Below are positions 29,214 through 54,412 of a stretch of 64,000 nucleotides of DNA, piece after piece. Made by a program: the position numbers and the translations under genes. The number at the start of each line of letters is the position of its first letter. The first letter of the stretch is position 1. The notes beneath the pieces were generated by a model. The model ran no database searches and was not told where the DNA came from. It saw only the letters and a program-made list of their open reading frames with translations. The DNA comes from Arthrobacter sp. V1I9 (lineage in GTDB: Bacteria > Actinomycetota > Actinomycetes > Actinomycetales > Micrococcaceae). The stretch is taken from assembly GCF_030817075.1 (NCBI RefSeq), contig NZ_JAUSYU010000001.1:2914001-2978000 (forward strand), read 5' to 3'.

Positions 29214-29225
29214 ATGTCCTATCAA
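29214..29225. promoter_or_regulatory. Candidate IolR operator, copy 1 (upstream of gntR-iolB)
   Basis: On the minus strand the bases read TTGATAGGACAT, fitting TTG-N4-GACAT; on the + strand the core is TGTCCTATCA, one mismatch from the C. glutamicum IolR consensus KGWCHTRACA. It lies about 65 bases before the GntR start, so autoregulation is likely. A second partial site CTGACATT follows at 29237. Confidence 0.5.
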
Positions 29226-29290
29226 GCGAACATAGGCTGACATTCGCGGCTCCGGGCAGACCGGACGACGCGGCCACAAGGGAGCGCTTC

Positions 29291-30031
29291 ATGGCGAATC
29301 AACTAAACCTCAGCATCGACCGCTCTTCGCCGGTGCCCCTTTACCATCAGGTGGTGCAAGGCATCGAAGCAGCCATCCACACCGGAGTGCTCCCTCCCGG
29401 CAGCCGGCTGGACAACGAGATTGACCTCGCCGCACAGTTGAACCTGTCGCGGCCCACCATGCGCAAGGCCATGGATGAACTGGTGCGCTCCGGCCTGCTG
29501 GTGCGCAAGCGGGGCGTGGGGACACAGGTCGTGTCCAGCCAGGTCCGGCGCCCGCTGGAGCTTTCCAGCCTCTTTGACGACCTCAGCAACAACGCCGCCA
29601 AGCCCACCACAGACGTTCTCACGTTTAGCCACGACGAGGCCGACGACCCGACGCGCGAGGCGCTCCACCTTCCGCCGGGCGCCATGGTGTACCACTTCAC
29701 CCGGTTGAGGAAAGTGGGCGGGAAACCGCTGGCGCTGATGGAAAACTGGGTCCGCGATGACATCACGCCCCTCACCGAGGAACTCTTGGGCAGCCAAGGC
29801 CTGTACTCCGTACTGCGCAACGGCGGAGTGAATTTCCGGCTCGCCACCCAACGGATCGGCGCCGTAGTAGCCAACGAGTACCAGGCCACGCAACTCGACA
29901 CGGTGCCAGGCTCGGCCTTAGTCACCATGGAGCGGACCGCCGTGGACGATACAGGCCGCAACGTGGAAACCGGACACCATGTGTACCGTGCGGATTCGTA
30001 CAGCTTTGAAATGACACTCGTACAGCGCTAG
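29291..30031 (+). CDS. GntR-family (UTRA) transcriptional regulator, likely IolR
   Basis: The 246-residue protein has an N-terminal GntR winged helix (VPLYHQVVQGIEAAIHTGVLPPGSRLDNEIDLAAQLNLSRPTMRKAMDELVRSGLLVRKRGVGTQVV, residues 15-80) and a C-terminal UTRA ligand-binding domain (LSSLFDDLSN...LMENWVRDDITP...HHVYRADSYSFEMTL). It precedes iolB by 18 bases and opens the inositol island. In C. glutamicum the inositol repressor IolR is also GntR-type, and its motif resembles the six sites I see here, so I infer IolR function. The ligand is unknown. Confidence 0.85.
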   Translation: MANQLNLSIDRSSPVPLYHQVVQGIEAAIHTGVLPPGSRLDNEIDLAAQLNLSRPTMRKAMDELVRSGLLVRKRGVGTQVVSSQVRRPLELSSLFDDLSNNAAKPTTDVLTFSHDEADDPTREALHLPPGAMVYHFTRLRKVGGKPLALMENWVRDDITPLTEELLGSQGLYSVLRNGGVNFRLATQRIGAVVANEYQATQLDTVPGSALVTMERTAVDDTGRNVETGHHVYRADSYSFEMTLVQR

Positions 30032-30049
30032 TGCAAGGACTACATATCT

Positions 30050-30943
30050 ATGACTAACTGGGTCTACCCCCTGGGCAGTGCCGCCGACGGTGGTTGGGAC
30101 GTCTCGCTCGGAACCTCCGATTCATCCCTGGCAGTGGATGGCTGGGCCCATACGGGCGTGAAAGTCGCCACCCTCGCGGCCGGGGCCGCCATCGGGCTGC
30201 CGGCGGCGGGTGAAGAACGAATAGTAGTTCCGCTCAACGGTTCCTTCACTGTCACAGTCGACGGCGAAGACTATGTGCTGAAGGGGCGCGCTTCCGTGTT
30301 CCACGGCCCCAGCGATGTCCTGTATTCGGGGACTGGCCGTGCCGTCACCGTCAGTTCCGAGGACGGCGGCAGGTTCGCGGTTGCCACCGCCCCGGCCAAC
30401 GCCTCCTACCCCACCCGCCTGGTTACCGGTGCCGAGACCCCCGTGGAGTTGCGCGGAGCCGGCAACTGCTCCCGGCAGGTTCACAATTTCGGCACGCCCG
30501 CGGCCCTCGAGGCCGACCGTTTTATCGTCTGCGAAGTGCTCACCCCCGCAGGGAACTGGTCGTCCTACCCTCCTCACAAGCACGATGAGGAAAAGGACGG
30601 CGAGACGAACCTCGAAGAGATCTACTATTTCGAGACGCAGGTGGCCGAGGGTTCCGCAGCTCCGGCCGACGCTGACGCCATCGGCTACCAGCGGGTTTAT
30701 GCCTCGGACGAGCGCCCCATCAACGTCGCGGCGGAGGTCCGCACGGGCGACGTTGTCCTGGTCCCCTACGGCTGGCACGGGCCAGCCATGGCCGCACCGG
30801 GCTACGACCTGTACTACCTGAACGTGATGGCTGGACCGGGCCCCGTCCGTCAATGGCTCATCAGCGACGACCCGCACCACGGCTGGGTTCGGCAAAGCTG
30901 GGACGGCCTGGACGTCGATCCTCGGCTGCCGTTCACAGCCTAG
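30050..30943 (+). CDS. iolB: 5-deoxy-glucuronate isomerase IolB
   Basis: The 297-residue bicupin isomerises 5-deoxy-D-glucuronate to 2-deoxy-5-keto-D-gluconate in inositol catabolism. Typical blocks are VPLNGSFTVTVDGEDYVLKGRASVFHGPSDVLY in the first cupin and NWSSYPPHKHDEEKDGETNLEEIYYFE in the second, carrying the metal ligands His, His and Glu, then VPYGWHGPAMAAPGYDLYYLNVMAGP. Length is normal for the family. It is co-transcribed with the GntR regulator rather than with the iolCDA run 20 kb away, which places one pathway step with the regulator. A palindromic terminator follows 8 bases after the stop. Confidence 0.95.
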   Translation: MTNWVYPLGSAADGGWDVSLGTSDSSLAVDGWAHTGVKVATLAAGAAIGLPAAGEERIVVPLNGSFTVTVDGEDYVLKGRASVFHGPSDVLYSGTGRAVTVSSEDGGRFAVATAPANASYPTRLVTGAETPVELRGAGNCSRQVHNFGTPAALEADRFIVCEVLTPAGNWSSYPPHKHDEEKDGETNLEEIYYFETQVAEGSAAPADADAIGYQRVYASDERPINVAAEVRTGDVVLVPYGWHGPAMAAPGYDLYYLNVMAGPGPVRQWLISDDPHHGWVRQSWDGLDVDPRLPFTA

Positions 30944-30950
30944 CGACAAG

Positions 30951-30984
30951 AAAATGCCCCTCCGGAATTCCGGAGGGGCATTTT
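30951..30984. terminator. Bidirectional terminator between iolB and the convergent iolG-like gene
   Basis: A 34-base perfect palindrome built on AAAATGCCCCTCCGG with T runs on both strands, 8 bases after the iolB stop and 17 bases beyond the stop of the minus-strand gene. Confidence 0.85.
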
Positions 30985-31001
30985 CCGTCGCAGCAAATCG
31001 C

Positions 31002-32012
31002 TCACCTGGCGACGCTGACGGCCACCTTCACGGCAACCCCTGTGGCAAGCGACTCCTGGGCAGCATCCGCCACCCGCGAAGCTGCCACCGCGTCCTCGGG
31101 TGTGCAGGGGTTGTCCCGCCTGCCCAGGATCAGTTCCACAAAGGCCGCCATTTCGTCACGGTACGCAGCGTCGAACCTCTCGGCGAAAGTCCGGTGCGGC
31201 TCCCCTGCAGGGAATCCAATGCCGGGTTCAGCCGAGGCCAGCGCGGCTTTGTCATCCAGCCCTACCAGCAGCGACCGCCGGGACCCCTGGATCTCCAGGC
31301 GGACGTCATGGCCAGCCCCGTTGTATCGGGTGGCCGAGACCGTGCCGACCGTGCCGTCGTCGAACGTCACCAGCGCGAGCGCGGTGTCCACGTCCCCCAC
31401 CGCGGCGATGGCCGGGTCACCGTTGTTGGAACCCTTCGCATAGACCTCAACGATCTCCCGGCCGGTCAGCCAGCGGAGGATGTCAAAGTCATGGACGGAG
31501 CAGTCCCGGAACAGGCCTCCTGAGCTGGCCAGGAATTCCACGGGAGGCGGCGCCATGTCGCAGGTGACTGCCCGCAGTGAATGGATCCAGCCCAGCTCGC
31601 CCGCCTCGTAGGCGCGCCGCGCCTCAAGGTAGCCGGCATCAAAGCGGCGCTGGTGGCCAATCTGGACCACACCTTGCCGGTCCCGGATGTACTCCAGCAC
31701 CGGAAGCGCATCCGCCACGTCCATGGCCACCGGCTTTTCGCAGAAGACCGGGATGCCAGCGTCCACGCCGGCCTTGATCAGCTCAGGGTGGGTGCCCGTC
31801 CCGGTGGCAACCACCAGGCCGTCCAGCCCAGAGGCCAGCAGCGCCTCCACCGTCGGAAGGAATTCGGCCCCGAGGCCGGCCGCGACGGTCCTGGCGTGGT
31901 CTTGGGCCACGTCAGTCAGCCGCAGCCGGACGTTGATGCCTTCCGGATTGAGCGCCCCATTCAGTGTGGCGATGTTGTTCGCGTGCATCACACCGATCCG
32001 GCCAACACCCAC
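31002..32012 (-). CDS. iolG: Inositol 2-dehydrogenase-like Gfo/Idh/MocA protein with disrupted N-terminus
   Basis: An NAD-dependent dehydrogenase of 336 residues from a GTG at 32012: GVGRIGVMHANNI (dinucleotide loop), VFCEKPVAMD with the catalytic Lys, HQRRFDAGY, and FRDCSVHDFDILRW with the Asp-x-x-x-His pair of IolG. The beta strand that should precede GVGRIG is missing. In another frame, an ATG at 32037, which overlaps the upstream gene's stop (ATGA), encodes M-K-D-V-I-L-G. Removing one base at 32016 fuses it to L-V-G-V-G-R-I-G, giving a normal 344-residue protein. Either the base is an error or translation uses the GTG. Confidence 0.8.
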   Translation of the reverse strand: MGVGRIGVMHANNIATLNGALNPEGINVRLRLTDVAQDHARTVAAGLGAEFLPTVEALLASGLDGLVVATGTGTHPELIKAGVDAGIPVFCEKPVAMDVADALPVLEYIRDRQGVVQIGHQRRFDAGYLEARRAYEAGELGWIHSLRAVTCDMAPPPVEFLASSGGLFRDCSVHDFDILRWLTGREIVEVYAKGSNNGDPAIAAVGDVDTALALVTFDDGTVGTVSATRYNGAGHDVRLEIQGSRRSLLVGLDDKAALASAEPGIGFPAGEPHRTFAERFDAAYRDEMAAFVELILGRRDNPCTPEDAVAASRVADAAQESLATGVAVKVAVSVAR

Positions 32013-32033
32013 CAGACCCCAAAATTACATCTT

Positions 32034-32819
32034 TCATCGCTTTTCCGCCGCATAATCGTTGAAGGCGCCCCGGAAGGCGTCCAGTGCCGCGTCGCTGTCA
32101 TCCTTTGCCCAGGCTTCCATGCCCACGGTGCCCTCGTAGCCAGCCTCGGCAAGTGCCCCGGCGACTGCCGCGTAGTTGATTTCCCCGGTCCCGGGTTCGC
32201 AGCGTCCAGGGACGTCGGCCACCTGGATCTCGCCGACGTACGGCAGGGCTGTCCGCACCAGCTCAATGAGGTTACCTTCCCCCAGTTGGGCGTGGTAAAG
32301 GTCCAGCATCAGCTTGGCGTGGGGGTGCCCGGCGGCTTCAACGAGTGCCAGCGTGTCCTTTGCGCGCGCCAGCGGGATGCCGGGGTGGTCAAGGACGGTA
32401 TTGAGGTTCTCCAGGCAGAATGTCAGGCCGTGTTTTTCGCCCAGTCTGCCGAGGCGCTCCAGCGTCCGTGCGCCGGTGCTCCACATGCTGCCGGTGGAAC
32501 GGAATACGGGACGCGCGGCGTGGCCGTCGATGAGTTCCGCCGGGTGCACCACCATCCGGCTGATGCCGAGTTCCAGAGCGGTGGGGATCAATGCTTCCGC
32601 GGTCCGCACCACGTCATCGGCGGAGCCGGGGTCCACCAGGCTGCCCGCGGTGTAGCCCGTCATGGAGGAAAACACCGCACCCGTTGCCTTGAGCGCAGCA
32701 ATGTCCTTGGTCCGCGAATCCCACAGTTCGACGTCGAAGCCGGACTCATGGATCCGTTGCACCCGTTCCACAAAGGGAAGGTCCGTGAAGACCATTTCCG
32801 CGCAGACCGCCAGGCGCAT
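32034..32819 (-). CDS. Sugar isomerase/hydroxypyruvate isomerase-like TIM-barrel protein
   Basis: The 261-residue AP-endonuclease-2-type barrel begins MRLAVCAEMVFTDLPFVERVQRI. It has FCLENLNTVLDHPGIPLA with a metal Glu, KLMLDLYHAQLGEGNL with an Asp and His, IQVADVPGRCEPGTGEINYAAV, and VGMEAWAKDDSD with the second catalytic Glu. This order fits hydroxypyruvate isomerase/OtnI. It overlaps the next gene by one codon at each end (stop at 32034 against ATG 32037; start at 32819 against the Idh stop at 32819), so it belongs to a tight unit with two dehydrogenases. The substrate is probably a keto-sugar or inosose. Confidence 0.82.
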   Translation of the reverse strand: MRLAVCAEMVFTDLPFVERVQRIHESGFDVELWDSRTKDIAALKATGAVFSSMTGYTAGSLVDPGSADDVVRTAEALIPTALELGISRMVVHPAELIDGHAARPVFRSTGSMWSTGARTLERLGRLGEKHGLTFCLENLNTVLDHPGIPLARAKDTLALVEAAGHPHAKLMLDLYHAQLGEGNLIELVRTALPYVGEIQVADVPGRCEPGTGEINYAAVAGALAEAGYEGTVGMEAWAKDDSDAALDAFRGAFNDYAAEKR

Positions 32820-33907
32820 CAGACGCCTGCCGTCTCATTGACCGCCACCGGGGCGCCGCGCTTGACCGACTCGATGCACGCCAAGGCCATGGCCAGCGCA
32901 CGGCGGGCGTCCGCGGCGCCGGGCGTGAGGGTGAATCCGGACGACGACGGCGGCACGCCGTCCCGCCGTGCACGCACCGCACCGGCAAAATCAGTCAGCT
33001 CGTCCGTATAGGCCTGCCGGAACAGTTCAACGTTGAGCCGCGGAGTGTCGGCGGAGAGCCCGTCCGCCGTGTAGCGCCGGGCTGCCGTTTCGGTGGTGCG
33101 GCCGGCCTGGACCATGCCCTTGGAGCCGAAGACTTCGCCGCGGATGTCGTACCCGTACAGTGCGCTGAAGTTTGCCTCGGCCACGGCCACCGCGCCGTTG
33201 CTGTAACGTATGGTCACCACCGCGGTGTCCAGGAACCCTTCCGCGCGCAGGGTGGGCTCCACGAGGGCGTCCGCCACGGCGTAGACCTCCACCGGCTCGG
33301 CCCCCTCATTGAACCAGTTGAGGGTGTCGAAGTCGTGGATGAGGGTCTCCAGGAAGATGGTCCAGGCCGGGACCCGGGCGGCGTTCGGGATGCTTCCGTT
33401 CCCGGGATCGCGGGTCAGTGAGCGGAGCAGCTGCGGTGTTCCGGCGATGCCCGCCGCAAGGTCCTTTTTCGCGGCTTGGAAGTCGTCCGCGTAGCGCCGG
33501 TTGAAGCCAACCTGGAAATGCACGCCGGCTTCCTCAACGGCGGCGAGTGAGGCGTCGAGTTCGTCGAGCCCCTGGCCGGCCGGCTTCTCGCAGAAGACGT
33601 GCTTTCCGGCGGCGGCGGCCTGGGCAATCAGTGATGAGTGAAAGCGTGCCGGGCTGGCGATCACCACAGCATCGATCTCCGGATCCGCCAGGATGTCGTC
33701 TGCGCTGGCCGTCACATTGGTGGTGCCGAGTTCGTGGGCGAGGGCCTGCGCGGAGTCCAGGTTGGGGTCGGCGATGGCCGCCAGGACGGCGCCCGGGACG
33801 CGGTGTGCGATGCTGTCGGCGTGGAACGCCCCCATCCAGCCGGAGCCGATGAGTCCGATCCGAACGGGTTCCTGGGCTGGAGCGGGACTGTGGGTGAGGT
33901 AGGCCAT
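32819..33907 (-). CDS. Gfo/Idh/MocA family oxidoreductase (second of the island)
   Basis: The 362-residue NAD(P)-dependent dehydrogenase has the Rossmann loop VRIGLIGSGWMGAFHADSI, HVFCEKPAGQGLDELD with the active-site Lys, VGFNRRYADDF, and ETLIHDFDTLNWF. In the latter the catalytic His is kept but the residue four before it is Glu rather than Asp. The start at 33907 has AAAGGA 8 bases upstream; the open frame extends to 34009 without domain sequence. It sits in a same-strand run from the SBP gene down to iolG-like, and likely oxidises an inositol isomer or a sugar acid. Confidence 0.85.
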   Translation of the reverse strand: MAYLTHSPAPAQEPVRIGLIGSGWMGAFHADSIAHRVPGAVLAAIADPNLDSAQALAHELGTTNVTASADDILADPEIDAVVIASPARFHSSLIAQAAAAGKHVFCEKPAGQGLDELDASLAAVEEAGVHFQVGFNRRYADDFQAAKKDLAAGIAGTPQLLRSLTRDPGNGSIPNAARVPAWTIFLETLIHDFDTLNWFNEGAEPVEVYAVADALVEPTLRAEGFLDTAVVTIRYSNGAVAVAEANFSALYGYDIRGEVFGSKGMVQAGRTTETAARRYTADGLSADTPRLNVELFRQAYTDELTDFAGAVRARRDGVPPSSSGFTLTPGAADARRALAMALACIESVKRGAPVAVNETAGV

Positions 33908-33942
33908 GGGCTGGTCCTTTCGCTGGTAAACGTGGAGGTGGA

Positions 33943-35016
33943 TCAGTGTTTGGGGTGTCGCCGGAGGGTGGTCACGCCGCAGCGCCGGCTTCGCCGGGGA
34001 ACACCACACGCAGCTGGTCGGCGGATTTCGTCGGCCACGTCCAGGGTGCGGACAGAGGCTGCGAGCGTCCGTTGTCTGGCTTGCGTGCTGCCGGCGGCTA
34101 TGGCCCGCGCCACCGCAGCCGCCTCGTAGTGCAGGCCTTCGAAGTGGCCGCCGGCCGGTTCGTCATGACGGAGGAGTGTTCCGTCAGGGAACCGGACCTC
34201 GAAACCGCCGGGCATATTGAACGGGCCCTCGATGGTCAGGGTGGCCTTGGAACCGACCACCGAGGCGGCCGTGGGCGTGAAGTTGTGGACGTGCGTGTTC
34301 ACCACTGCCTGGGCGCCGCCGTCGAACTGCATAACAGCGGACAGTTGGGCGTTCACCCCGGATTCATGTGGTTGCCCGACGGCGAACAGCCGCTCTGGAC
34401 TGCCCAGTATCTCGGTGACAAGCGCCAGCGGGTAGGTGCCCAGGTCAAGAAGCGGGCCGCCGGCCAGTTCCGGGTTGAAAATGCGGTGCGTGCGGTCGAA
34501 GTGCTCGCCATACTCCGCGACGACCGTGGTGATGGTGCCCAGTGTCCCGGCGTGGAGGATCTGCCGGATCACATCGAACTTCGGCAGGAAAAAGGTCCAC
34601 ATCGCCTCGGCGGCGAATACTCCGGCTTCCTCCGCCCGGCGGGCGATGTCCCGTGCCTGGCCTGCGTTGAGTCCGATCGGCTTTTCGATCAGGACGTGCT
34701 TGCCGGCGTCGATAGCGAACGCAGCAGCTGCGTGGTGGCCGGTGTGCGGCGTGCAGACATAGACGATGTCAATGTCCGGGGCGGCGGCCAATTCCTCATA
34801 GCTGCCGTAGGCCGCAGCCACGTCATATGCTTCCGCGAAGGCCTTGGAGCGGCTCAGCGAACGGGACCCGACGGCGGCGATCACCTGCCCGGTGTGCGCC
34901 TGGATGGATTCGGTGAACCGTTCGGCAATCCAGCCCGGGCCCATGATGCCCCACCGCAGCACGGGGGCATCCCGGGATGCGGGCACGCGGGACTGCGGGA
35001 GGGTTGTCGCCGTCAT
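33943..35016 (-). CDS. Gfo/Idh/MocA oxidoreductase, dihydrodiol-dehydrogenase type, C-terminus frameshifted
   Basis: The 357-residue protein has WGIMGPGWIAERFTESI, HVLIEKPIGLNAGQARDI, an AMWTFFLPKFDVIRQIL block, and GGPLLDLGTYPLALV, in which Tyr replaces the usual catalytic His, as in the dimeric dihydrodiol dehydrogenase subgroup. The last 25 residues (after DEIRR) are Arg-rich nonsense. Skipping one base at about 34018 gives QLRVVFPGEAGAAA and a stop at 33972, the expected ending (347 residues). Its start overlaps the stop of the next upstream dehydrogenase (ATGA). Activity may survive, as only the tail is changed. Confidence 0.78.
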   Translation of the reverse strand: MTATTLPQSRVPASRDAPVLRWGIMGPGWIAERFTESIQAHTGQVIAAVGSRSLSRSKAFAEAYDVAAAYGSYEELAAAPDIDIVYVCTPHTGHHAAAAFAIDAGKHVLIEKPIGLNAGQARDIARRAEEAGVFAAEAMWTFFLPKFDVIRQILHAGTLGTITTVVAEYGEHFDRTHRIFNPELAGGPLLDLGTYPLALVTEILGSPERLFAVGQPHESGVNAQLSAVMQFDGGAQAVVNTHVHNFTPTAASVVGSKATLTIEGPFNMPGGFEVRFPDGTLLRHDEPAGGHFEGLHYEAAAVARAIAAGSTQARQRTLAASVRTLDVADEIRRPAACGVPRRSRRCGVTTLRRHPKH

Positions 35017-36011
35017 GCGTAGCTCACTTTCGTGGATGCACCGTCGCTGTGCAGCGACTGGATCATTGCTTGGGCAACGAGCGAGGCGTTGAGCCCGTCC
35101 TGCGCGCCGGCGAGGGTGGGCTTCTCTCCTTGCATGAGCGCGGAAATCCAGGCCTGCAGCTGCAGCCGGTATGCATCGGCGAATCTGGGGCGCCAGTCCG
35201 CGGGAATCTGCTCCTGCCGGCTTCCCTGCTGCTCAATTCCCAGCAGCGCCGATTCCTGCAGTGCGGTGGTGCCGTGCTCCGAAACGACCTCGCAGCGGGT
35301 GGTGTAGCCGTACTGCGCATTCAGGTACAGCTCCAGGGTTGTGAGGGTTCCATCGGCGGCACGGAGCGTCATGAAGGCGGGATCCCGCAGTCCGGCCAGG
35401 GCATTCCGCGTACTTTTTCCGGCCTGCCACGAAACTTCCGTGATGGGAGAGTCCAGCAGCCAAGGAATGATGTCCAGCTCGTGGATGGCCGAATTCGTGA
35501 TGGCCGATTCGGAGGTGGTACCGGGAGCTGCGGAGGCATTACGGCTGATGCAGTGGACAATCAGCGGCTCGCCCTGCACCCGGTCCTGCACGGCCTGCCG
35601 CAGTGCAACGTAGCCCGGGTCGAAGCGCCGCATAAAACCCAGCGAGAGTAGGGACGCACCGGTTGCCGCCAGCATGTCGGTGTCGGCGGCTACCACCTCC
35701 AGGCTTTCCAAAACCGTGGGTGCCAGGGGCTTTTCGCACAGGACCGGCGTCATCGCCTCGAAGCACTCCAGGACCAGTCCGGCGTGCGTGGAATCGTGTG
35801 AGGCCACCACGACGGCGTCCACCTCGCTGGAGTTGATCAGCTCCGATGGATCAGTGGTGATGCGTGCCGACGGCGGTGCTGCCGCGGCGGCGCGTTCAGC
35901 GTCGAGATCGGCCACAAAGGTAACTTCGGCGCCGCCAATGGTGGTGGAAAGGTTCCTGATGTGGTCGGCGCCCATAATTCCGGCGCCGACGACGCCTACC
36001 CGGATCGGCAT
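35013..36011 (-). CDS. Gfo/Idh/MocA oxidoreductase, inositol dehydrogenase-like
   Basis: The 332-residue protein starts at Met 36011 (AGGGAA upstream): RVGVVGAGIMGADHIRNLS, VLCEKPLAPTVLE with the catalytic Lys, SLGFMRRFDPGYVAL and TNSAIHELDIIPWLL. It is the closest relative in the window to the iolG at 46251 (shared MGADHI, GFMRRFD, HE-x-D blocks), but the Asp four before the catalytic His is Asn. It follows the ABC importer genes on the same strand with a 110-base gap, suggesting co-regulation. It probably oxidises an imported polyol. Confidence 0.85.
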   Translation of the reverse strand: MPIRVGVVGAGIMGADHIRNLSTTIGGAEVTFVADLDAERAAAAAPPSARITTDPSELINSSEVDAVVVASHDSTHAGLVLECFEAMTPVLCEKPLAPTVLESLEVVAADTDMLAATGASLLSLGFMRRFDPGYVALRQAVQDRVQGEPLIVHCISRNASAAPGTTSESAITNSAIHELDIIPWLLDSPITEVSWQAGKSTRNALAGLRDPAFMTLRAADGTLTTLELYLNAQYGYTTRCEVVSEHGTTALQESALLGIEQQGSRQEQIPADWRPRFADAYRLQLQAWISALMQGEKPTLAGAQDGLNASLVAQAMIQSLHSDGASTKVSYA

Positions 36012-36121
36012 GGTGTTCCCTTCGTGGACGTTTCGTGTGCGGGCGTGATTTCCCCGGACGGTGCGGACAGGCATGGCGGGGTCTCCGGAGTGATCCCGGA
36101 GCACCCCGCCTGGTGCTGCCG

Positions 36122-37048
<927 letters not shown>

Positions 37049-37062
37049 GTTCCCTGACCCCT

Positions 37063-38118: not shown

Positions 38119-38170
38119 ATTAAGTCTCCTTGCTGCCGGGCCGGCCTTCACCGGCCCGGCCAGCGGGCTG

Positions 38171-43847: not shown

Positions 43848-43869
43848 TTTGCTGCCCCTTTTCGGTGCA

Positions 43870-46217: not shown

Positions 46218-46250
46218 GTGGGCACTCCGTTGTGGGTCAGTTGAGGGCGT

Positions 46251-47264
46251 TTAGTTGTACAGGTCAGGCTTGGTGTTGAGCCGGACCTTGACCTTTTCGC
46301 CGGACTTCTGTGCCTCGACGCCGGCCTCGCAGCAGGCTGCGGTGGCGTACCCGTCCCAAGCGGTGGGACCGCCGATTTCGCCGCGGCGGGCGGCGTCCAC
46401 CCATGACTGGATTTCGACGTCATACGCGGCCCCGAACCGCTCTTCGAAGCCGGGAGTGACCTTGCCGCCCCAGCGGCCTGCGGTGCGGACGTACGGTCCG
46501 CCGTCGCCGCCGATGTTGACGATGCCGTCCTCGAAGGAGGCCTGGGTGGCCACTTCGTAGCCGAACTTGGCGTTGACATAGATTTCGACGTCGGCGAGGA
46601 CGCCTGATTCGGTCTCCAGGAGGACATGCTGCGGATCATGCTGTCCCGAAGGTGCGTTTTTGGTGGCCTTGCCGAGACGGACCTGGACGCTGGTGATTTC
46701 CTCGCCGGTGAAGTAACGGATGGCGTCGAACTCGTGGACTACCGAGTCGTTGATCAACATCTCGTTGGTGAAGCCGGCCGGGGTAGTGGGGTTGCGATGC
46801 TGGTGGTGGAGCATCAGCAGCTCTCCGAGTTCGCCGTCGCGGATCACGGAGCCGAGAGCGGCGTATTCCGCGTCGAATCGGCGCATGAAGCCTACCTGGA
46901 TGCGTTTGTGGCCAAGCGCGGTTTCGGCCTGGACAATCTTCCACGCGCTCTCGGCGTCCGGGGTGAGCGGCTTTTCACAGAGGATAGGGATGTCCTTCGC
47001 CAGGGCCTTGTAGAGGATGTCCTCGTGCAGGAAGCCTGGCGTGGCGATGAGGACGGCGTTGACGTCGCCGTTGTTGAGGGCTTCCTCGGCGTCGGCCAGG
47101 GCAACGGCGCCGGCGATGCCTTCAATGGCGGCCTGCGCGCGGGCCAGGTCAACGTCGACGACGGCGGCAACTTCAGCGCCGTGAATGCGGCTGTTGAGGC
47201 GCTGGATGTGGTCGGCGCCCATGCGGCCGGCGCCGATGACGGCGACGCGAAGGGTTTCAGTCAT
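46251..47264 (-). CDS. iolG: myo-Inositol 2-dehydrogenase IolG
   Basis: The 337-residue NAD-dependent dehydrogenase oxidises myo-inositol to scyllo-inosose. It has LRVAVIGAGRMGADHIQRLN, ILCEKPLTPDAESA with the catalytic Lys, QVGFMRRFDAEYAALG, and NDSVVHEFDAIRYF carrying Asp and His of the proton relay. All catalytic residues expected for IolG are present, unlike the paralogue at 35013. AAGGA is 7 bases upstream. Its place between iolE and iolH makes it the best candidate for the main inositol dehydrogenase in the island. Confidence 0.92.
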   Translation of the reverse strand: MTETLRVAVIGAGRMGADHIQRLNSRIHGAEVAAVVDVDLARAQAAIEGIAGAVALADAEEALNNGDVNAVLIATPGFLHEDILYKALAKDIPILCEKPLTPDAESAWKIVQAETALGHKRIQVGFMRRFDAEYAALGSVIRDGELGELLMLHHQHRNPTTPAGFTNEMLINDSVVHEFDAIRYFTGEEITSVQVRLGKATKNAPSGQHDPQHVLLETESGVLADVEIYVNAKFGYEVATQASFEDGIVNIGGDGGPYVRTAGRWGGKVTPGFEERFGAAYDVEIQSWVDAARRGEIGGPTAWDGYATAACCEAGVEAQKSGEKVKVRLNTKPDLYN

Positions 47265-47299
47265 GGTTCATTCCTTATGTTTGGTGTGCCTGGGCGGCG

Positions 47300-48211
47300 T
47301 CAGTTGACGGCTGTGCGGGAACCGCAGGAGAGCAAGAAGTTGCGGGTGCGCTTGGCAATCGGCATGGGAACGTCGAACGCTACCGGGTACATATCCTGCT
47401 CCACAATTCCGAAGATGGGGCGGTTCAGTGCCTCTACGGCTTCGATCACGGCGCGCAGGTCCGGCAGCCCGTTCGGCGGCTCGGTCATGACTCCGGCCAG
47501 GTTGGCCGCGGCCCAGGTCATGTTTTCCTCGTTGACCTTCTTCAGGATCTCCGGGTTGATCTGCTTCAGGTGCAGGTAGCCGATGCGGTCCGGATAGTTC
47601 TTGATCAGCTCGAGGCTGGAGGCGCCGCAGTATTCGGCGTGCCCGGTGTCCAGGCACAGGTTCAGATACGTGGGGTCCGTGGCAGCCAGCAGTGTTTCGA
47701 TGTCCCTCTGCGCTCCGACGTGCGAATCGGCGTGCGAGTGGAACTGCTGCTTCAGGCCAAAGTCCTCCAGCAGGGTCTTGCCCAAACGGTTATGGCCAGC
47801 GAACAGGTCGTCCCAGGCCTTCTCCGTCAGCTGGCCGCTTTCGACGGCTTCGCCGGTGACGTCATCGCGCCACATGGCCGGGATGACCACAATGTGCTCG
47901 CCGCCCATGGCTGCGGTAAGCTCGGCAACCTTGCGGGCAGGCTCCCAGGCGGTCTCCCACTGGTCCAGTCCGCGGTGGAACGCGGTGAACACCGTTCCGG
48001 CGGTGACCTGCAGGTCGCGGGCCTTCAGTTCCTCGGCCAGCCGGGTGGGATCGTTCGGCAGGTAGCCGTACGGGCCCAGTTCGATCCACTTGTACCCGGA
48101 TTCGGCCACCTCATCGAGGAACCGCTCCCACGGGGTCTGCTGGGGGTCATCCGCGAACCAGACGCCCCAGGAGTCAGGGGCGGTGCCGATGATCAGCTTG
48201 TTTTCAGTCAT
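47300..48211 (-). CDS. iolE: Inosose dehydratase IolE-like protein
   Basis: The 303-residue AP-endonuclease-2-type barrel opens IIGTAPDSWGVWFADDPQQTPWERFLDEVAESGYKWIELGPYGYLP, the IolE signature, and has FHSHADSHVGAQRDIETLLAATDPTYLNLCLDTGHAEYCG with metal ligands. IolE removes water from scyllo-inosose to give the trihydroxycyclohexanedione used by IolD. I prefer the Met at 48211 (AAGGA 6 bases upstream) to the one at 48217, where the site would touch the start codon. It precedes iolG by 35 bases. Confidence 0.88.
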   Translation of the reverse strand: MTENKLIIGTAPDSWGVWFADDPQQTPWERFLDEVAESGYKWIELGPYGYLPNDPTRLAEELKARDLQVTAGTVFTAFHRGLDQWETAWEPARKVAELTAAMGGEHIVVIPAMWRDDVTGEAVESGQLTEKAWDDLFAGHNRLGKTLLEDFGLKQQFHSHADSHVGAQRDIETLLAATDPTYLNLCLDTGHAEYCGASSLELIKNYPDRIGYLHLKQINPEILKKVNEENMTWAAANLAGVMTEPPNGLPDLRAVIEAVEALNRPIFGIVEQDMYPVAFDVPMPIAKRTRNFLLSCGSRTAVN

Positions 48212-48305
48212 TGCCATTCCTTCTCATCGATTGCTCCGCAAGGGCCCTTCTGGACGCTCATGACGGCCGTTACGGAGCAGTCGATGGTGGTAAGTGGGGC
48301 GGGGG

Positions 48306-49817
48306 TCAGTTGGAGGGGAAGTTGTAGGAGGCACCCGAGGCGTGGGTGGGTTCGGGCCAGCGGGAGGTGATGACCTTGCCGCGGGTGTAGAAGGAGACGC
48401 CTTCGGGGCCGTAGATGTGCTTGTCGCCGAAGAGGGAGGCCTTCCAGCCGCCGAAGGAGTGGTAGGCCACGGGCACGGGCAGGGGGACGTTGATGCCGAT
48501 CATGCCGACCGTGACGGAGCGCTGGAACTTCCGGGCTGCCGCGCCGGAGGAGGTGAAGATGGCGGTGCCGTTGCCGTACGGGTTGGCGTTGATCAGGGCG
48601 ATGCCGTCTTCAAGGGTGTCGACGCGGACCACCACGAGGACGGGTCCGAAGATTTCCTCGGTGTACGCGGTCATTCCGGTCTTGACGTGGTCGATCACGG
48701 TAGGGCCCACCCAGAAGCCGTCCTCATGGCCCGGGACCATGAGGTCGCGGCCGTCCACCACCATGGCCGCGCCGGCCGTTTCGGCTTCGGTGACGATTCT
48801 GATGATGCGTTCCTTGGACGCCGGGGTGATGACCGGGCCCATTTCGGCGTCGGGTGCGGTGCCGTTGTTGACCTTCACGGCCAGGGCACGCTCTTCGACT
48901 TTTTTGACGATCAGGTCCGCGGCGTCCCCGACGGCGACGGCGACGGAGATCGCCATGCAGCGTTCCCCGGCGGAGCCGAACGCGGCAGCTGCCAAGTGGT
49001 CCGCGGCGTTGTCCAGGTCCGCATCGGGCATCACGATGGCATGGTTCTTCGCCCCGCCCAGGGCCTGGACCCTTTTGCCGTGTTTGGTCGCGGTTTCGTG
49101 GACGTACTGCGCGATCGGGGTGGAGCCGACGAAGGAGATGCCGTCCACGTCGGGGTGGGTCAGCAGCCCGTCAACGGTTTCCTTGTCCCCGTGCAGGACC
49201 TGGAACACGCCGTCAGGCAGGCCCGCCTGCTTCCACAGCTTCGCCAGCAGCATCGAGGCCGACGGGTCCCGTTCGGAGGGCTTGAGGATGAACGCGTTGC
49301 CGGTAGCGATCGCCATCGGTGCCATCCACAAAGGCACCATCACGGGGAAGTTGAACGGGGTGATCCCGGCAACCACACCGAGGGGTTCGCGGAAGGAGAA
49401 GACGTCGATGCCGGTGGAGACCTGGTCCGAGTAGTCACCCTTGACCAGGGTCGGGATCCCGCAGGCGAACTCAATAACTTCCAGGCCGCGGCCGATCTCG
49501 CCCTTCGCATCGGAGAGGACTTTGCCGTGCTCCGCGGTGATCAGGGCCGCGAGGTCATCCACATGGGCGGCGACCAGTTCGCGGAACTTGAACAGCACCG
49601 CCGTGCGCTTGGCCAGCGAGATATCGCCCCAGGTATCGGCGGCCTTGCGGGCCACCGCAACGGTCGCGTCCAGGTCCGCCCGGTTGGCCAGCCGCAGCTC
49701 ACCGCTCACCTGGCCGGTGGCCGGGTTGTACACCGGCTGGGTGCGGGTGCCCGCACCGGCGGTCTCGGCACCGTTGATGAAATGGTTGATGGTGGTGGTC
49801 TCGGTTGTGACAGTCAT
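48306..49817 (-). CDS. mmsA: CoA-acylating (methyl)malonate-semialdehyde dehydrogenase IolA/MmsA
   Basis: The 503-residue aldehyde dehydrogenase turns malonate semialdehyde into acetyl-CoA and CO2, the last step of inositol breakdown, and can act on methylmalonate semialdehyde. It has GITPFNFPVMVPLWMAPMAIATGNAFILKPSERDP (cofactor site), FVGSTPIAQYVHETA, and FGSAGERCMAIS with the catalytic Cys in the family's G-x-R-C-M-A form; the Glu usual in hydrolytic ALDHs is absent from QALGGAKNHAIVMPDAD, as expected for CoA-acylating members. It lies 43 bases after iolD in the same unit. Confidence 0.94.
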   Translation of the reverse strand: MTVTTETTTINHFINGAETAGAGTRTQPVYNPATGQVSGELRLANRADLDATVAVARKAADTWGDISLAKRTAVLFKFRELVAAHVDDLAALITAEHGKVLSDAKGEIGRGLEVIEFACGIPTLVKGDYSDQVSTGIDVFSFREPLGVVAGITPFNFPVMVPLWMAPMAIATGNAFILKPSERDPSASMLLAKLWKQAGLPDGVFQVLHGDKETVDGLLTHPDVDGISFVGSTPIAQYVHETATKHGKRVQALGGAKNHAIVMPDADLDNAADHLAAAAFGSAGERCMAISVAVAVGDAADLIVKKVEERALAVKVNNGTAPDAEMGPVITPASKERIIRIVTEAETAGAAMVVDGRDLMVPGHEDGFWVGPTVIDHVKTGMTAYTEEIFGPVLVVVRVDTLEDGIALINANPYGNGTAIFTSSGAAARKFQRSVTVGMIGINVPLPVPVAYHSFGGWKASLFGDKHIYGPEGVSFYTRGKVITSRWPEPTHASGASYNFPSN

Positions 49818-49859
49818 GGGACTCTTCCTTGAGTAGTCGAAGGGGATGAAAAGAGGGGG

Positions 49860-51821
49860 TCAGCCCAGCAGCTTGCGCTGGCGGGACTTGTGGTCGGTGT
49901 AGGTCTGGAAGGCCTGCTTCGTGGAGTCGAGGTCAGAGACCTGGGAGACGGGAACGTCCCACCACGCTTCGGAGCTCGGGGCGTCCAGCAGCGGATCGGA
50001 TTCGACGTGGATCAGGATGGGCCCACTGCGTTCGGGCGCTGCCTTCGCGTCCCGGATGGCCTGTTCGAGTTCGGCGATGGCCTTCTCCCCCGGTTCGATC
50101 CGGACCACTTTGACGCCGAGGGACTCGGCGTTCAGGGCCAGGTCCACGGGCAGGGTTTCGCCTTCGTCGAAGCTGTGCCGGGCCTCGTCCAGTGCACGGT
50201 ACTGGGTGCCGAACCGCTGGGAGCCCAGCATTTCGGAGAGCGAGCCGATGGAGGCGTAGCCGTGGTTCTGAATCAGGACCACGATCAGCTTGATGCGTTC
50301 GGCGACGGCGGTGACCAGTTCCGTGTGCATCATCAGGTAGGAGCCGTCCCCCACCATCACCACGACGTCCCGCTGGGTGCCGCCGCGGGCGGCTTCGGCC
50401 AGGGCTGCGCGTTTGACGCCCAGGCCGCCGGGGATCTCGTAGCCCATGCAGGAGTACGCGTATTCCACGTGGTAACCGAACGGGTCCCGGACCCGCCACA
50501 TCTTGTGCAGGTCGCCGGGCAGCGATCCCGCGGCGCAGATGACCACGTCGGCCGCGTCCATGGCACGGAAGGTGGCGCCGATGATCTCGTTCTGCGCCGG
50601 CAGCGGCGTGTGCCGGGTCTCGAACGCCTCGTCCACGGTGGCGTCCCAACGTGCGTTCTCCGAGGCGATAGTCGCTTCGAGGTCCGCGCCGATGCGGTAC
50701 CCGCCCAGGGCTACGTTGAGCTTCACCAGGGCCTTGCGGGCATCGGCCACGATGGGCAGCGTGGTGCCGTGCTTGTACGCATCAATCGCGGCGACGTTGA
50801 TGTTGATGAACCTTACGTCCGGGTTCTGGAACGCGGTCCGCGACGCGGTGGTGAAGTCCTCGTACCGGGTGCCGATCCCGATGATCAGGTCCGCCTCCGC
50901 AGCGATGGCGTTCGCCGCCGTCGTGCCCGTGGACCCGATCGCGCCCAGGGAGAACGGGTGGTCCCAGGGCAGGACACCGACGCCCGCCTGGGTGTTGCCC
51001 ACCGGGATCCCCGTCAACTCGGCGAAGGCAGCCAGTTCGTCGTTGGCGTAGGCGTACAGCACGCCGCCGCCGGCGATGATCAGCGGACGTTTCGCGGCAC
51101 GTATGGCCGCGGCGGCGCGGGCGATGTCCTCATCGTCGGCGTCCGGGCGGCGGATCCGCCACTCCCGCTCGGCCAGGAACTCCTCGGGCACGTCGAAGGC
51201 CTCGGCCTGGACATCCTGCGGCAGTGAAATCGTGACGGCTCCGGTCTCGGCCGGGTCCGTGAGAACCCGCAGGCCGTGGTGGAACGCGGAGAACAGCTGC
51301 TCCGGCCGGGAGACCCGGTCAAAGAACTTCGACAGCGGCCGGAACGCGTCATTGACAGTGATGTCGTACGCGTAGGGCTGCTCAAGCTGCTGCAGGACCG
51401 GGTCCGCGGCGCGGGTGGCGAACGTGTCACTCGGTAGCAGCAGTACGGGCAAACGGTTGGTAGTGGCCAGCGCCGCACCGGTGAGTAAGTTGGAGGAACC
51501 CGGCCCGATCGAGGTGCTGATCGCGAAGGTCTGGCGCCGCCGGGTGTGCCGGGCATACCCCACTGCCTGGTGCGCCTGGGCCTGCTCGTTCCGGCCTTGG
51601 TAGTACGGCATGATCGCCGGGTCAAGGTGCTGGTACTGCTTGAGGGCCTGCCCAACGCCGGCCACGTTGCCGTGCCCGAAGATACCGAAGGTGCCCGGAA
51701 TGAGGCGTTCCCGGAAGTCCACCCCGCCGACAAAATCCACCGTGTACTGCTTGGAAAGGTACTCGACCACGGCCTGGGCCACGGTCATCCGGCGGGTTCC
51801 GGTTGCTGTTCTCGTCCCCAT
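49860..51821 (-). CDS. iolD: 3D-trihydroxycyclohexane-1,2-dione hydrolase IolD
   Basis: The 653-residue ThDP-dependent enzyme opens the six-membered ring to 5-deoxy-glucuronate. It has TVAQAVVEYLSKQYTVDF at the N-terminus, a long IolD-specific insertion before FAISTSIGPGSSNLLTGAALATTNRLPVLLLPSDTFATR, and the PP domain VVMVGDGSYLMMHTELVTAVAERIKLIVVLIQNHGYASIGSLSE with the GDG...N-H-G metal motif. Length is normal. It lies 6 bases after the aldolase-like gene. Confidence 0.95.
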   Translation of the reverse strand: MGTRTATGTRRMTVAQAVVEYLSKQYTVDFVGGVDFRERLIPGTFGIFGHGNVAGVGQALKQYQHLDPAIMPYYQGRNEQAQAHQAVGYARHTRRRQTFAISTSIGPGSSNLLTGAALATTNRLPVLLLPSDTFATRAADPVLQQLEQPYAYDITVNDAFRPLSKFFDRVSRPEQLFSAFHHGLRVLTDPAETGAVTISLPQDVQAEAFDVPEEFLAEREWRIRRPDADDEDIARAAAAIRAAKRPLIIAGGGVLYAYANDELAAFAELTGIPVGNTQAGVGVLPWDHPFSLGAIGSTGTTAANAIAAEADLIIGIGTRYEDFTTASRTAFQNPDVRFININVAAIDAYKHGTTLPIVADARKALVKLNVALGGYRIGADLEATIASENARWDATVDEAFETRHTPLPAQNEIIGATFRAMDAADVVICAAGSLPGDLHKMWRVRDPFGYHVEYAYSCMGYEIPGGLGVKRAALAEAARGGTQRDVVVMVGDGSYLMMHTELVTAVAERIKLIVVLIQNHGYASIGSLSEMLGSQRFGTQYRALDEARHSFDEGETLPVDLALNAESLGVKVVRIEPGEKAIAELEQAIRDAKAAPERSGPILIHVESDPLLDAPSSEAWWDVPVSQVSDLDSTKQAFQTYTDHKSRQRKLLG

Positions 51822-51827
51822 GGGAAG

Positions 51828-52769
51828 TTACTCCGATACTTCTGATGATGCGGTGTGGTTAAGGAGGGAGGCGGCGGTGGCCACCGCGCCGGCAACATCA
51901 CCGTCCGCCGGATACAACAGGGTGCGCCCCACTGTGAGGCCCTGCACGCCGGGCAGCGCCAGGGCGGCTTCCCAGCGGGCGAACACTTCGTCCTGGGTGC
52001 CGTCGGGGTCCCCGCCCAGCAGCACGGTGGGCATTGTGGTGGCGGCCATGACCCGTTCCATCTCAGCGACGACGGGCAGCTTCATCCAGGTGTAGGCACT
52101 GGTGGAGCCTAGGCCCTCGGCAATGGCGATTGACTTGATCACCGCGTCGGTGGAGAGGTCATTCCGGACCTTGCCGTTGGTCCGCACCGATAAGAAGGGC
52201 TCAACCATGGCGATCAGCTTGCGCTCAGCCAGCGAGTCGATGGCCTTGGCCGTGGCTTCCAGCAGGGACACCGTGTCCGGGTCACCGAGGCAGATGCGGG
52301 TCAGCATTTTGCCTCCGTCGGCGCCGAGGGCTTCGAGGGCCGCGGCGGTGTGGCCGGTGAACCGGTCGTCGAACTCGTTGACCAGGCCGGACAACCCGCC
52401 ACGGTTCATCGACCCAAAAATCAGTTTGCCCTCCAGCGCACCGAGCAGCAGCAGGTCATCCATGATGTCCGGCGAGGCGAGCACACCGTCCACATCCGGG
52501 TTGGCCAGCGCGATCTGTAGCCGGTCCAGCAACTGGCGGCGGTCCGCCATCGCCACCGGATCGGAACCAACCGCGAGGGCGCCGCGGGCAGGATGGTCCG
52601 CCGCGACGATGAAGTTCTGCCGGCCGTACTTCAGGCCGGGGTGGCGGCGCCGCGCCTTGGCGGCACGGGCAACAGCATCCGGATCCTCCAGGCGGATGGT
52701 GCTCAGGTGCGCGTATCGGCGCGGATCATTATCCACGTCGACGGTGGCAGTGCCGAGGTTGATGCTCAC
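51828..52769 (-). CDS. Cgl0159-like (beta/alpha)8 aldolase-type protein
   Basis: The 313-residue barrel resembles class I DeoC/FbaB aldolases: KYGRQNFIVAADHPARGALAVG, DVDGVLASPDIMDDLLLLG, LIAMVEPFLSVRTNGKVRNDLSTDAVIKSIAIAEGLGSTSAYTWMKLPVV with a candidate Schiff-base Lys, and TVLLGGDPDGT. In actinobacterial iol loci this family stands where IolJ would be, so the likely reaction is cleavage of 2-deoxy-5-keto-gluconate 6-phosphate to malonate semialdehyde and dihydroxyacetone phosphate. The GTG start overlaps the iolC stop (GTGA). Confidence 0.83.
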   Translation of the reverse strand: MSINLGTATVDVDNDPRRYAHLSTIRLEDPDAVARAAKARRRHPGLKYGRQNFIVAADHPARGALAVGSDPVAMADRRQLLDRLQIALANPDVDGVLASPDIMDDLLLLGALEGKLIFGSMNRGGLSGLVNEFDDRFTGHTAAALEALGADGGKMLTRICLGDPDTVSLLEATAKAIDSLAERKLIAMVEPFLSVRTNGKVRNDLSTDAVIKSIAIAEGLGSTSAYTWMKLPVVAEMERVMAATTMPTVLLGGDPDGTQDEVFARWEAALALPGVQGLTVGRTLLYPADGDVAGAVATAASLLNHTASSEVSE

Positions 52770-53767
52770 AGTGCTGCTCCTTCGATGGCGAACTGGCCCG
52801 GAACCAGGCGGCCGCGTTCCGCGAGCAGGGAGGTGACCTCGTCCGGCGTCGGCATCGCATCGGCGCAGGACAGGCGGGAGGCGACGATCGCGCCGGCGGC
52901 GTTGGCGTAGTCCAGCACCTGGGCCAGCGGCCAGCCGGACAGCAGTCCGTGGCAGAACGCTCCGCCGAAGGAGTCCCCGGCGCCCAGGCCGTTCACGGTC
53001 TCGACCGGAACCGGTGCGGACACCACACGCTCCGTGCGGGTCTTGGCCATCACGCCCTCCGGGCCGAGCTTCACGACGGCGATCTCCACGCCCGCGGCCA
53101 GCAGGCGGTCCGCCTGCTCATCCGGGGTCCCCTCGCCCACGGCCACGGCGCATTCCTTGTCGTTGCCGATGGCCACGGTCACATGCGGCAGAATCTTAGC
53201 CACCTGGGCGCGGGCTTCTTCCTCCGAGGCCCAAAACATGGGCCGGTAGTCCAGGTCAAGGATGGTGTACTGGCCCTCTTGCAGGCCCGAGTGCGGGCGT
53301 GCTTCGTGGGCCTTGATGTGGGCTTCGCGGCTGGGCTCCTGGCACAGGCCGGTCACGGTGGACCAGAAGATCCGCGCGTCCCGGATGGCATCCAGGTCCA
53401 GTTCATCCGCTTGGATCTGCAGGTCCGGGGCCGTGGGGAACCGGCCGTAGAAGTACAGCGGGAAGTCCTCCGGCGGCTTGATCGCACAGAAAGTGACGGC
53501 GGTGGGCCACTCCTTCACGGGCGTAACAAAGGAATCGTTCACGTTGAACTTCTTCAATTCCCGGTGCAGGTAGGTCCCGAAAGCATCATCGCCAGTCCGG
53601 GTGATCACACCGGCCCGACGGCCGTGCCGGGCAGCGGCCACGGCAACGTTCGACGGCGATCCGCCAAGGTACTTGCCGAAGGACGTCACGTCCTCCAGGT
53701 TCACCCCAATGTCGTTCGGGTAAATATCAACGCTGATGCGCCCGATCGTGAGCAGTTCGTGGGTCAC
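52766..53767 (-). CDS. iolC: 5-dehydro-2-deoxygluconokinase IolC
   Basis: The 333-residue PfkB-family kinase phosphorylates 2-deoxy-5-keto-D-gluconate. It has LTIGRISVDIYPNDIGVNLEDVTSFGKYLGGSPSNVAVAAARHG (substrate site) and ETVNGLGAGDSFGGAFCHGLLSG with the catalytic Asp in GAGD and the anion hole. It is the first gene of the run reaching iolT at 43870. Two candidate IolR sites lie 110-135 bases upstream. The stop overlaps the next start. Confidence 0.94.
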   Translation of the reverse strand: MTHELLTIGRISVDIYPNDIGVNLEDVTSFGKYLGGSPSNVAVAAARHGRRAGVITRTGDDAFGTYLHRELKKFNVNDSFVTPVKEWPTAVTFCAIKPPEDFPLYFYGRFPTAPDLQIQADELDLDAIRDARIFWSTVTGLCQEPSREAHIKAHEARPHSGLQEGQYTILDLDYRPMFWASEEEARAQVAKILPHVTVAIGNDKECAVAVGEGTPDEQADRLLAAGVEIAVVKLGPEGVMAKTRTERVVSAPVPVETVNGLGAGDSFGGAFCHGLLSGWPLAQVLDYANAAGAIVASRLSCADAMPTPDEVTSLLAERGRLVPGQFAIEGAAL

Positions 53768-53872
53768 GGTAATCGCGGACCTTTCTTGTTAGAACTCTTT
53801 ACCTTTGAGCAGTTAGAGCTCCGGCTCGGACCTCCGTGAGCGGGGCCACAACCCCTACTTTGCCCTAGAAAA

Positions 53873-53886
53873 CATGTCCTGTCAAA
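53873..53886. promoter_or_regulatory. Candidate IolR operator, copy 4 (upstream of iolC)
   Basis: The minus strand reads TTGACAGGACAT at 53885-53874, identical over 12 bases to the copy at 40372-40383. The spacing of 6 bases to copy 5 suggests a tandem operator. Confidence 0.6.
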
Positions 53887-53888
53887 GG

Positions 53889-53910
53889 TTTGTACTGACA
53901 TACTTACAAC
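53889..53910. promoter_or_regulatory. Candidate IolR operator, copy 5 (upstream of iolC)
   Basis: TTGTACTGACATACTTACAA (53890-53909) fits TTG-N4-GACAT and has complementary ends TTGT and ACAA. It agrees with copy 6 at 54393 in 19 of 20 positions. Confidence 0.65.
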
Positions 53911-53969
53911 AAGGTTTACGGCCGCCAATCTGCGCCCGCCAGGCGGCTCTACCGGGAACCCGGCAGGTC

Positions 53970-54374
53970 CTACTTCCGGGGAACGGCCAGTTCACCCGTG
54001 ACATATTGGGCCCGCCCAAAGCCGAAGGACCAGTCATCAGCAGAGTTCTCCACGTAGCCGATAAAAACATCCTCACCGGCTATATCCAACTCCGCCAGGC
54101 GGCCCGCGATGGCCGCAAAGAGGGATTGCTTCGACTCCCGGCTTCGCCCGCCCTGCGTAAAGATCTGGATCATCACCACATCCGGCGTGCGCTGAAATCC
54201 GAGCCCGGCATCCTGGGCAACAATTTGCCCCGGAGGGTGCTCCGTGAGCACATGGAAATAGTCCCGCTCCGGGATTCTGTATTCGGCGAGGATCGCGTCG
54301 TGGATCCCTCGGCTGAGGCGGCGCAGGTCTCCTGCGCTGCGTCCCTGATTAACATCGATGCGCACGAGTGGCAT
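53970..54374 (-). CDS. Tautomerase-family protein
   Basis: The 134-residue protein belongs to the tautomerase superfamily (4-oxalocrotonate tautomerase/MSAD type). I chose the Met at 54374 because the family needs Pro as residue 1 after Met removal, and it encodes M-P-L-V-R-I-D; the frame's first Met at 54380 would hide that Pro. Other features are RLSRGIHDAILAEYRIPERDYFHVLTEH and FTQGGRSRESKQSLFAAIAGRLAE. It ends 202 bases upstream of iolC on the same strand, with an IolR-like site directly before it, so a role in inosose or keto-sugar tautomerisation is worth testing. Confidence 0.82.
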   Translation of the reverse strand: MPLVRIDVNQGRSAGDLRRLSRGIHDAILAEYRIPERDYFHVLTEHPPGQIVAQDAGLGFQRTPDVVMIQIFTQGGRSRESKQSLFAAIAGRLAELDIAGEDVFIGYVENSADDWSFGFGRAQYVTGELAVPRK

Positions 54375-54392
54375 TTCCATCTCCTAAAACAT

Positions 54393-54412
54393 TTGTACTG
54401 ACATACTAACAA
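54393..54412. promoter_or_regulatory. Candidate IolR operator, copy 6 (upstream of the tautomerase gene)
   Basis: TTGTACTGACATACTAACAA differs from copy 5 at one base. It lies 18 bases before the tautomerase start at 54374, where it would overlap the promoter or transcription start. Confidence 0.65.

Follow-up and report, generated by a model that had tools for sequence, protein, structure and literature searches.

A conserved palindrome as the predicted operator of a GntR-type, IolR-like regulator in the inositol island of Arthrobacter sp. V1I9

Introduction

The primary paper on IolR of Corynebacterium glutamicum is reportedly Klaffl 2013. In a passage of PMC9603128, this GntR-type protein is presented as a repressor of the genes for inositol transport and degradation, and a passage of PMC8634428 suggests that it is negatively autoregulated. 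Two GntR regulators of Streptomyces coelicolor, SCO6974 and SCO6256, have been tied to myo-inositol catabolism (reference titles in PMC6608401; a passage of PMC6295645). The operators of the HutC subfamily mostly have four nucleotides between GT and AC, and the subfamily consensus is GTMTAKAC, as worded in a section of PMC4494728. A LacI-type regulator, IolQ of Bacillus subtilis, acts on the iolX promoter, and its LacI-type palindrome has a central CG (excerpt of PMC5504672). Here we analyze a stretch of 64 kb from Arthrobacter sp. V1I9 (contig NZ_JAUSYU010000001.1; hereafter the window, numbered from its first letter), which contains an inositol island of 25 kb, a gene for a GntR-type regulator (gntR), and six copies of the motif TTG-N4-GACAT in front of the transcription units of the island.

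We propose, with a probability of roughly 0.9, that the six sites serve as operators for the GntR/HutC-type repressor whose gene is at 29291-30031 and which would be the counterpart of C. glutamicum IolR and the GntR-type inositol regulators of Streptomyces. The system is well supported but ordinary in kind, related switches being already known in Corynebacterium and Streptomyces. What is added here is a conserved pair of operators 16 bp apart, a LacI element, and a tautomerase gene.

Six copies of one palindrome in the inositol island

TTG-N4-GACAT matches the window exactly at six places and nowhere else, and these are the six sites listed in a preliminary description of this DNA. The motif is one face of a 12-bp palindrome, TTGTCnnGACAA, and SCO6974 is said to recognize a palindromic site like it. 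The first site lies before gntR-iolB (29214..29225, - strand, ATGTCCTATCAA on the + strand), the second before the unit of an ATP-binding cassette (ABC) importer (39268..39279, +), and the third over the -35 element (TTGACA) of the promoter of a dehydrogenase gene (40372..40383, +). Two sites precede iolC, of which the proximal one (53874..53885, -) includes a -35 TTGACA and the distal one (53890..53901, +) is 16 bp away, centre to centre. The sixth precedes the tautomerase gene (54393..54404, +).

A position matrix was built from 87 sites near iol genes in segments of 30 relatives' loci (see below for the details), our own genome being excluded; its TTG and GACA positions were fixed by the seed, whereas the four bases between them and the flanking positions were left free. 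The matrix reads as the palindrome TTTGTCnnGACAAA. In the order given above, the six sites score 17.0, 22.3, 20.4, 18.5, 21.5, and 21.6 bits, and the next places in the window reach 12.3 bits (6345) and 10.2 bits (30006, inside gntR), so that the matrix parts the six sites (17.0-22.3 bits) from the rest of the window (at most 12.3 bits). The string KGWCHTRACA, the IolR consensus of C. glutamicum, is matched exactly at 39269-39278 only, and with one mismatch at each of the other five sites, in line with the preliminary description, in which the second copy matched exactly and the others were close. The string occurs in none of the papers searched.

The sites do lie before transcription units, as had been claimed, but the number of these units is six rather than five. 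The site at 40372 is also 45 bp before the start of the divergent lacI gene and is common to the lacI and dehydrogenase units; with this one in common use, every unit of the island is preceded by a site. The position of the 40372 site over the -35 element held up as well, with TTGACA-17-TACGCT being read there by eye. The site at 39268 was rightly placed before the importer, to which we add that it overlaps the last codons of lacI, the gene upstream of the importer. Promoter scans yielded promoter-like pairs at gntR and at the importer. The latter pair, TTGACA-17-CATGAT, is on the - strand at 39263-39235, with the operator just upstream of the predicted -35. The same scans listed no promoter-like pair at iolC or the tautomerase gene, nor the TTGACA-17-TACGCT at 40372.

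Two further observations concern individual sites. At 29214-29233, the gntR operator is followed by an inverted half-site (ATGTYC-N8-GGACAT, - strand), both here and in close relatives, and this arrangement is perhaps a second, overlapping register. At the importer (39260-39279), relatives such as G086 and G063 have the site about as far from sbp, the gene of the solute-binding protein, in loci with no match to lacI.

Conservation of the regulator and its sites among relatives

We surveyed 100 genomes of the family, our own included. Orthologues of gntR, with at least 53% identity, were found in 32 of them, and the next matches had at most 34% identity. The gene was present in all 31 genomes possessing iolC (at E<=1e-70) and in one of the 69 others (G061). 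In G035, the gntR match came in two pieces (G035:C35:68597-69435), which perhaps reflects a broken gene or an assembly error. Segments of up to 40 kb around 30 orthologues from 29 relatives (G092 and G035 left out; 1.13 Mb) were then compared, and gntR adjoins iolB in 31/31 segments, that of our own genome included. TTGN4GACAT occurs 71 times in the relatives' segments, its reverse once, and the uncomplemented complement once. With A or T as the last base (a choice made after inspection), the pattern occurs at 114 places as opposed to 14 for its reverse, our own segment included.

A site of at least 10 bits was detected within 400 bp before gntR at 30/30 loci, own included, and 28 of the 30 have one of at least 15 bits (note that this count leaves out G033, G035, and the second copy in G078, although G033 and that copy have the site). 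Before iolC, a site of at least 10 bits occurs at 29/30 loci, counted at 30 of 32 places with G033 and a contig-end copy in G078 left out, and the centres of two iolC sites are exactly 16 bp apart at 24 of these 30 loci. For comparison, 61 of 2000 random windows of 430 bp from the relatives' segments have a site of at least 15 bits, real sites included.

The proximal iolC site contains TTGACA at 25/30 loci; of these, 19 have CANAGT 17 bp further on and five have it 18 bp further on, G092 having neither. It could be asked whether the sites are mainly the -35 hexamers (TTGACA) of ordinary promoters that have GACAT in common by coincidence, and two of the six sites in the window (40372 and 53874) indeed contain TTGACA at plausible -35 positions. 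However, the other four sites are without the hexamer, and so are most gntR sites of the relatives and of the class-level loci described below. In addition, the same two halves with gaps of N2, N3, N5, and N6 occur at 19, 13, 21, and 21 places in the relatives' segments, the N4 spacing being 3-5 times as common around the iol genes there. We regard it as extremely improbable that the sites are promoter hexamers in the main.

Orthologues in the class and in Corynebacterium

A GntR match at E<=1e-40 was found in 92 of 296 genomes of the class. We examined the best 27 new loci of these 92 genomes, beyond three already examined, in which the protein is 50-57% identical. A site of at least 13 bits was found 45-152 bp before gntR at 24 of the 27 loci. 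The 98 kb of class-level loci contain 26 matches, as opposed to none in the reversed sequence.

Two Corynebacterium loci, L187 and L188, were found with chain 2p19 as the query, presumably a GntR protein of C. glutamicum; five loci were returned, C. glutamicum not among them. In both, a gntR gene (44-45% identical) faces iolC, and the best matrix place in 20 kb (19.3 and 20.3 bits, respectively) lies between iolC and gntR and matches KGWCHTRACA exactly. In L188, another and weaker place (13.2 bits) also lies between the two genes, and the start of iolC holds a further match to the consensus. The closest solved chain to the gntR profile is 2ra5 (300 bits), presumably a protein of S. coelicolor. 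Several large genomes of another family (f25) have two such GntR proteins, and in the family of our window this is the case in G078 only.

Altogether, the claim that the sites define the regulon of the GntR protein at 29291 is supported by the site before its own gene at all loci counted, the presence of gntR wherever iolC was detected, the class-level loci, the Corynebacterium divergons, and the GT-N4-AC spacing. The protein has the GntR and UTRA domains, its linkage to iol genes is conserved, and sites of the TGTCnnGACA kind stand before its own gene and the iol operons. Judged from these sequence features, it is very probably an IolR-type repressor.

The motif in the rest of the genome, and points against the assignment

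The whole genome was searched with three degenerate patterns (for one of them, among the matches listed) rather than by the matrix scan that the preliminary description had proposed, and nine of the better-looking places from two of the patterns were then retrieved for scoring. Six of the 31 exact matches in the genome fall in the window, which makes up 1.6% of it; 0.40 would be expected (Poisson P 4e-6, a value that is indicative only, as the pattern was chosen after the sites had been seen). The 25 exact matches outside the window include one of at least 17 bits (233811, 17.2 bits) and two of 13.5 and 14.5 bits, the others scoring lower, and 18 of the 24 off-island matches with retrieved surroundings are inside mechanically called open reading frames. 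The place at 344012 (13.5 bits) has neighbours with no Pfam match, and that at 4037352 (14.5 bits) is about 125 bp past the 3' end of a LacI-type gene. With the wider pattern, a perfect palindrome, TTGTCAGGACAA, was found at 1290231 (16.5 bits) inside a galactofuranosyltransferase gene. The surroundings of another place, 266760 (13.1 bits), are unannotated, and the remaining off-island places that were scored fall below 13 bits. Within the limits of these pattern searches, no second target locus was found off the island.

Several observations weigh against the assignment of the sites to GntR. The bare motif is not enriched genome-wide, with 31 matches in 4.05 Mb and 34 for the reversed pattern, and because of this the bare string proves little; with one mismatch allowed, the window has 20 matches, fewer than its shuffles (mean 31.8). 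The place at 233811, inside a solute-binding-protein gene, scores above the gntR site, which at 17.0 bits is the weakest of the six. The place at 1099736 (18.5 bits, wider pattern), over a ribosome-binding site, also outscores the weakest site of the window; it lies before a ATGGCAAAG start, at what by eye is a groES-groEL junction, for which no family match was obtained. In the relatives' segments, the shifted-gap controls turn up more often (13-21 places) than the reversed one (1). The iolC gene of G036 is without a site, iolE upstream of it having one there, and so are three of the 27 class-level loci (at 13 bits), three of nine promoters of the dehydrogenase gene (G095, G075, and G036), and two of 13 tautomerase genes (G048 and G020). 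Finally, some of the sites counted in the 30 family segments had also served to train the matrix; our own window, the class-level loci, and Corynebacterium are independent of that training set.

A LacI-type regulator and the dehydrogenase promoter

The island encodes a second regulator, a LacI-family protein (lacI, 39260..40327, - strand; PF00356 + PF13377), inside the island and beside two of the six sites. LacI-type IolR proteins exist elsewhere, seven groups for inositol being mentioned in a passage of PMC4052901, and this protein might likewise be the inositol repressor that binds the six sites. Nevertheless, a LacI match at E<=1e-50 was detected in only 14/100 family genomes, own included, a count that may be low as the best 20 candidates alone were scored in larger genomes. 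Among the genomes without a LacI match, the site is found at 16/17 iolC loci and 17/17 gntR loci.

Moreover, a different palindrome appears to go with the LacI protein. The promoters of the levoglucosan/inositol-dehydrogenase-like gene (lgdh) have a conserved LacI-type palindrome with a central CG, TTGGAGCGCTCCAA, whose 12-base core TGGAGCGCTCCA is present with at most one mismatch in 8/9 segments, own included. In the window, the putative LacI operator TTGTAGCGCTCCAA (40418..40431, strand not assigned) differs from TTGGAGCGCTCCAA by one mismatch and closely follows the -10 element of the dehydrogenase promoter. With up to three mismatches, TTGGAGCGCTCCAA occurs in the window only at 40418 (one mismatch) and 18310 (three), and iolC, gntR, sbp, and the tautomerase gene have no such element upstream; apart from 40418, no place before an iol unit has the central-CG operator that would mark a LacI-type IolR. 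In one relative, G006, a LacI core with one mismatch is 183 bp from gntR. The GntR-type site TTGACAGGACAW was found in 6/9 lgdh promoters, own included, and in G095 and G075 the LacI element is present and the GntR-type site is missing. We consider it very unlikely that the LacI protein binds the six sites. From the separate palindromes at the lgdh promoters, we infer two regulators with separate operators: GntR and LacI most likely have one kind each, and these meet at the dehydrogenase promoter, which is probably under dual control.

The tautomerase gene

The gene behind the sixth site encodes a Tautomerase_2 family protein of 134 aa (53970..54374, - strand; PF14552, 100 bits). Matches to this protein were found in 14/31 segments, own included, and 13 of them have DNA upstream (the segment of G086 is cut there). 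In 11 of the 13 orthologues, own included, a site lies 22-30 bp ahead of the match. The Tautomerase_2 gene can be counted among the conserved members of the predicted regulon. No description of a tautomerase as a member of an IolR regulon was found among the papers listed, one of which contains the terms tautomerase, myo-inositol, and iolR. We tentatively suggest, at a little short of an even chance, a system in which the conserved tautomerase of the regulon may handle an enol/diketo intermediate made by IolE, and in which two repressors gate the dehydrogenase gene, GntR over the -35 and LacI just downstream of the -10. A long inverted repeat with a terminator-like hairpin (54500-54565) is located upstream of the tautomerase gene, at the edge of the island.

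Gene content of the island

The regulator gene gntR (29291..30031, + strand) encodes a HutC-type protein, likely IolR, with both PF00392 (GntR) and PF07702 (UTRA) above the cut-off. It is followed by iolB for 5-deoxy-glucuronate isomerase (30050..30943, +; TIGR04378 above the cut-off). The ABC importer/inositol-dehydrogenase unit (31002..39166, -) comprises sbp, a permease gene, four iolG/Gfo-like genes, and an isomerase-like gene, according to NCBIfam matches mostly below the cut-off. The gap of 1048 bp between the permease gene and the next gene presumably holds the ATPase. The dehydrogenase unit (40479..43790, +; NCBIfam and Pfam) consists of the levoglucosan/inositol-dehydrogenase-like gene, a gene for a xylose-isomerase-like TIM barrel (IolE-like), and a Gfo/Idh gene. 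The iolC-iolJ-iolD-iolA-iolE-iolG-isomerase-MFS (sugar porter) unit (43870..53767, -) has gaps of at most 88 bp, and TIGR04382, TIGR04377, TIGR01722, and TIGR00879 are above the cut-off in it, iolE and iolG being below. The limits of these operons are inferred. There are seven Gfo/Idh-type dehydrogenase genes within the island (31002-47264), and this number suggests that several inositol isomers or related sugars are used.

Proposed mechanism

A dimer of GntR would bind the 12-bp palindrome. In the absence of inositol, the bound protein would block RNA polymerase, sitting over the -35 at 40372 and 53874 and beside or just downstream of the promoter elsewhere, and at iolC two dimers may sit side by side at the conserved 16-bp spacing. 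The gntR-iolB unit, the importer unit, the dehydrogenase unit with the divergent lacI, the iolC unit, and the tautomerase gene would all be repressed in this manner, until a ligand derived from inositol and taken up by the UTRA domain releases the protein. The sign of the regulation and the release by a ligand are proposed by analogy with the regulators of C. glutamicum and Streptomyces. The positions over the -35 at 40372 and 53874, as well as those near the predicted promoters at gntR and the importer, fit repression.

The sites might also be genuine GntR sites at which the protein has the other sign, or little effect, at some units. The importer is an example: its site is just upstream of the predicted -35, where an activator could sit as well. 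On the other hand, a passage of PMC9603128 presents C. glutamicum IolR as a repressor, and SCO6974 is a GntR-type repressor by the title of Yu 2015 (reference list of PMC6608401). We find a different sign or little effect at some units improbable to much the same degree as binding by the LacI protein, and prefer repression by GntR at every unit.

Comparison with known systems

The assignment offers a clean and testable regulon for the 25-kb inositol island, and the matrix carries over to other actinobacteria. The tautomerase becomes a conserved candidate enzyme of inositol breakdown or of a step next to it. If true, the two-repressor gate would mean that the cell senses one inositol isomer or a related sugar within its general inositol response. 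The understanding of bacterial inositol regulation is unchanged by these findings.

The LacI protein resembles IolQ of B. subtilis, which acts on iolX, in its predicted action at one inositol dehydrogenase promoter and in a palindrome with a central CG. Unlike in B. subtilis, the parallel concerns only the secondary regulator here, and the operator sequence differs. The GntR protein shares with the HutC subfamily (NagR/YvoA and DasR) its GntR and UTRA domains and a palindrome with GT-N4-AC, but the inner bases are C-n-n-G here (TGTCnnGACA), in contrast to those of GTMTAKAC. Like SCO6974 and SCO6256 it is predicted to be a GntR-type regulator of inositol catabolism, with 2ra5 as the closest solved chain; the presence of two such proteins, seen in several large genomes of f25, is confined to G078 in the family of the window. 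With C. glutamicum IolR, the system has in common a GntR-type regulator tied to inositol genes, and two other Corynebacterium genomes possess a gntR 44-45% identical to ours. It differs from that system in that gntR heads a unit with iolB, and in that the sites reach an ABC importer, several dehydrogenases, and a tautomerase.

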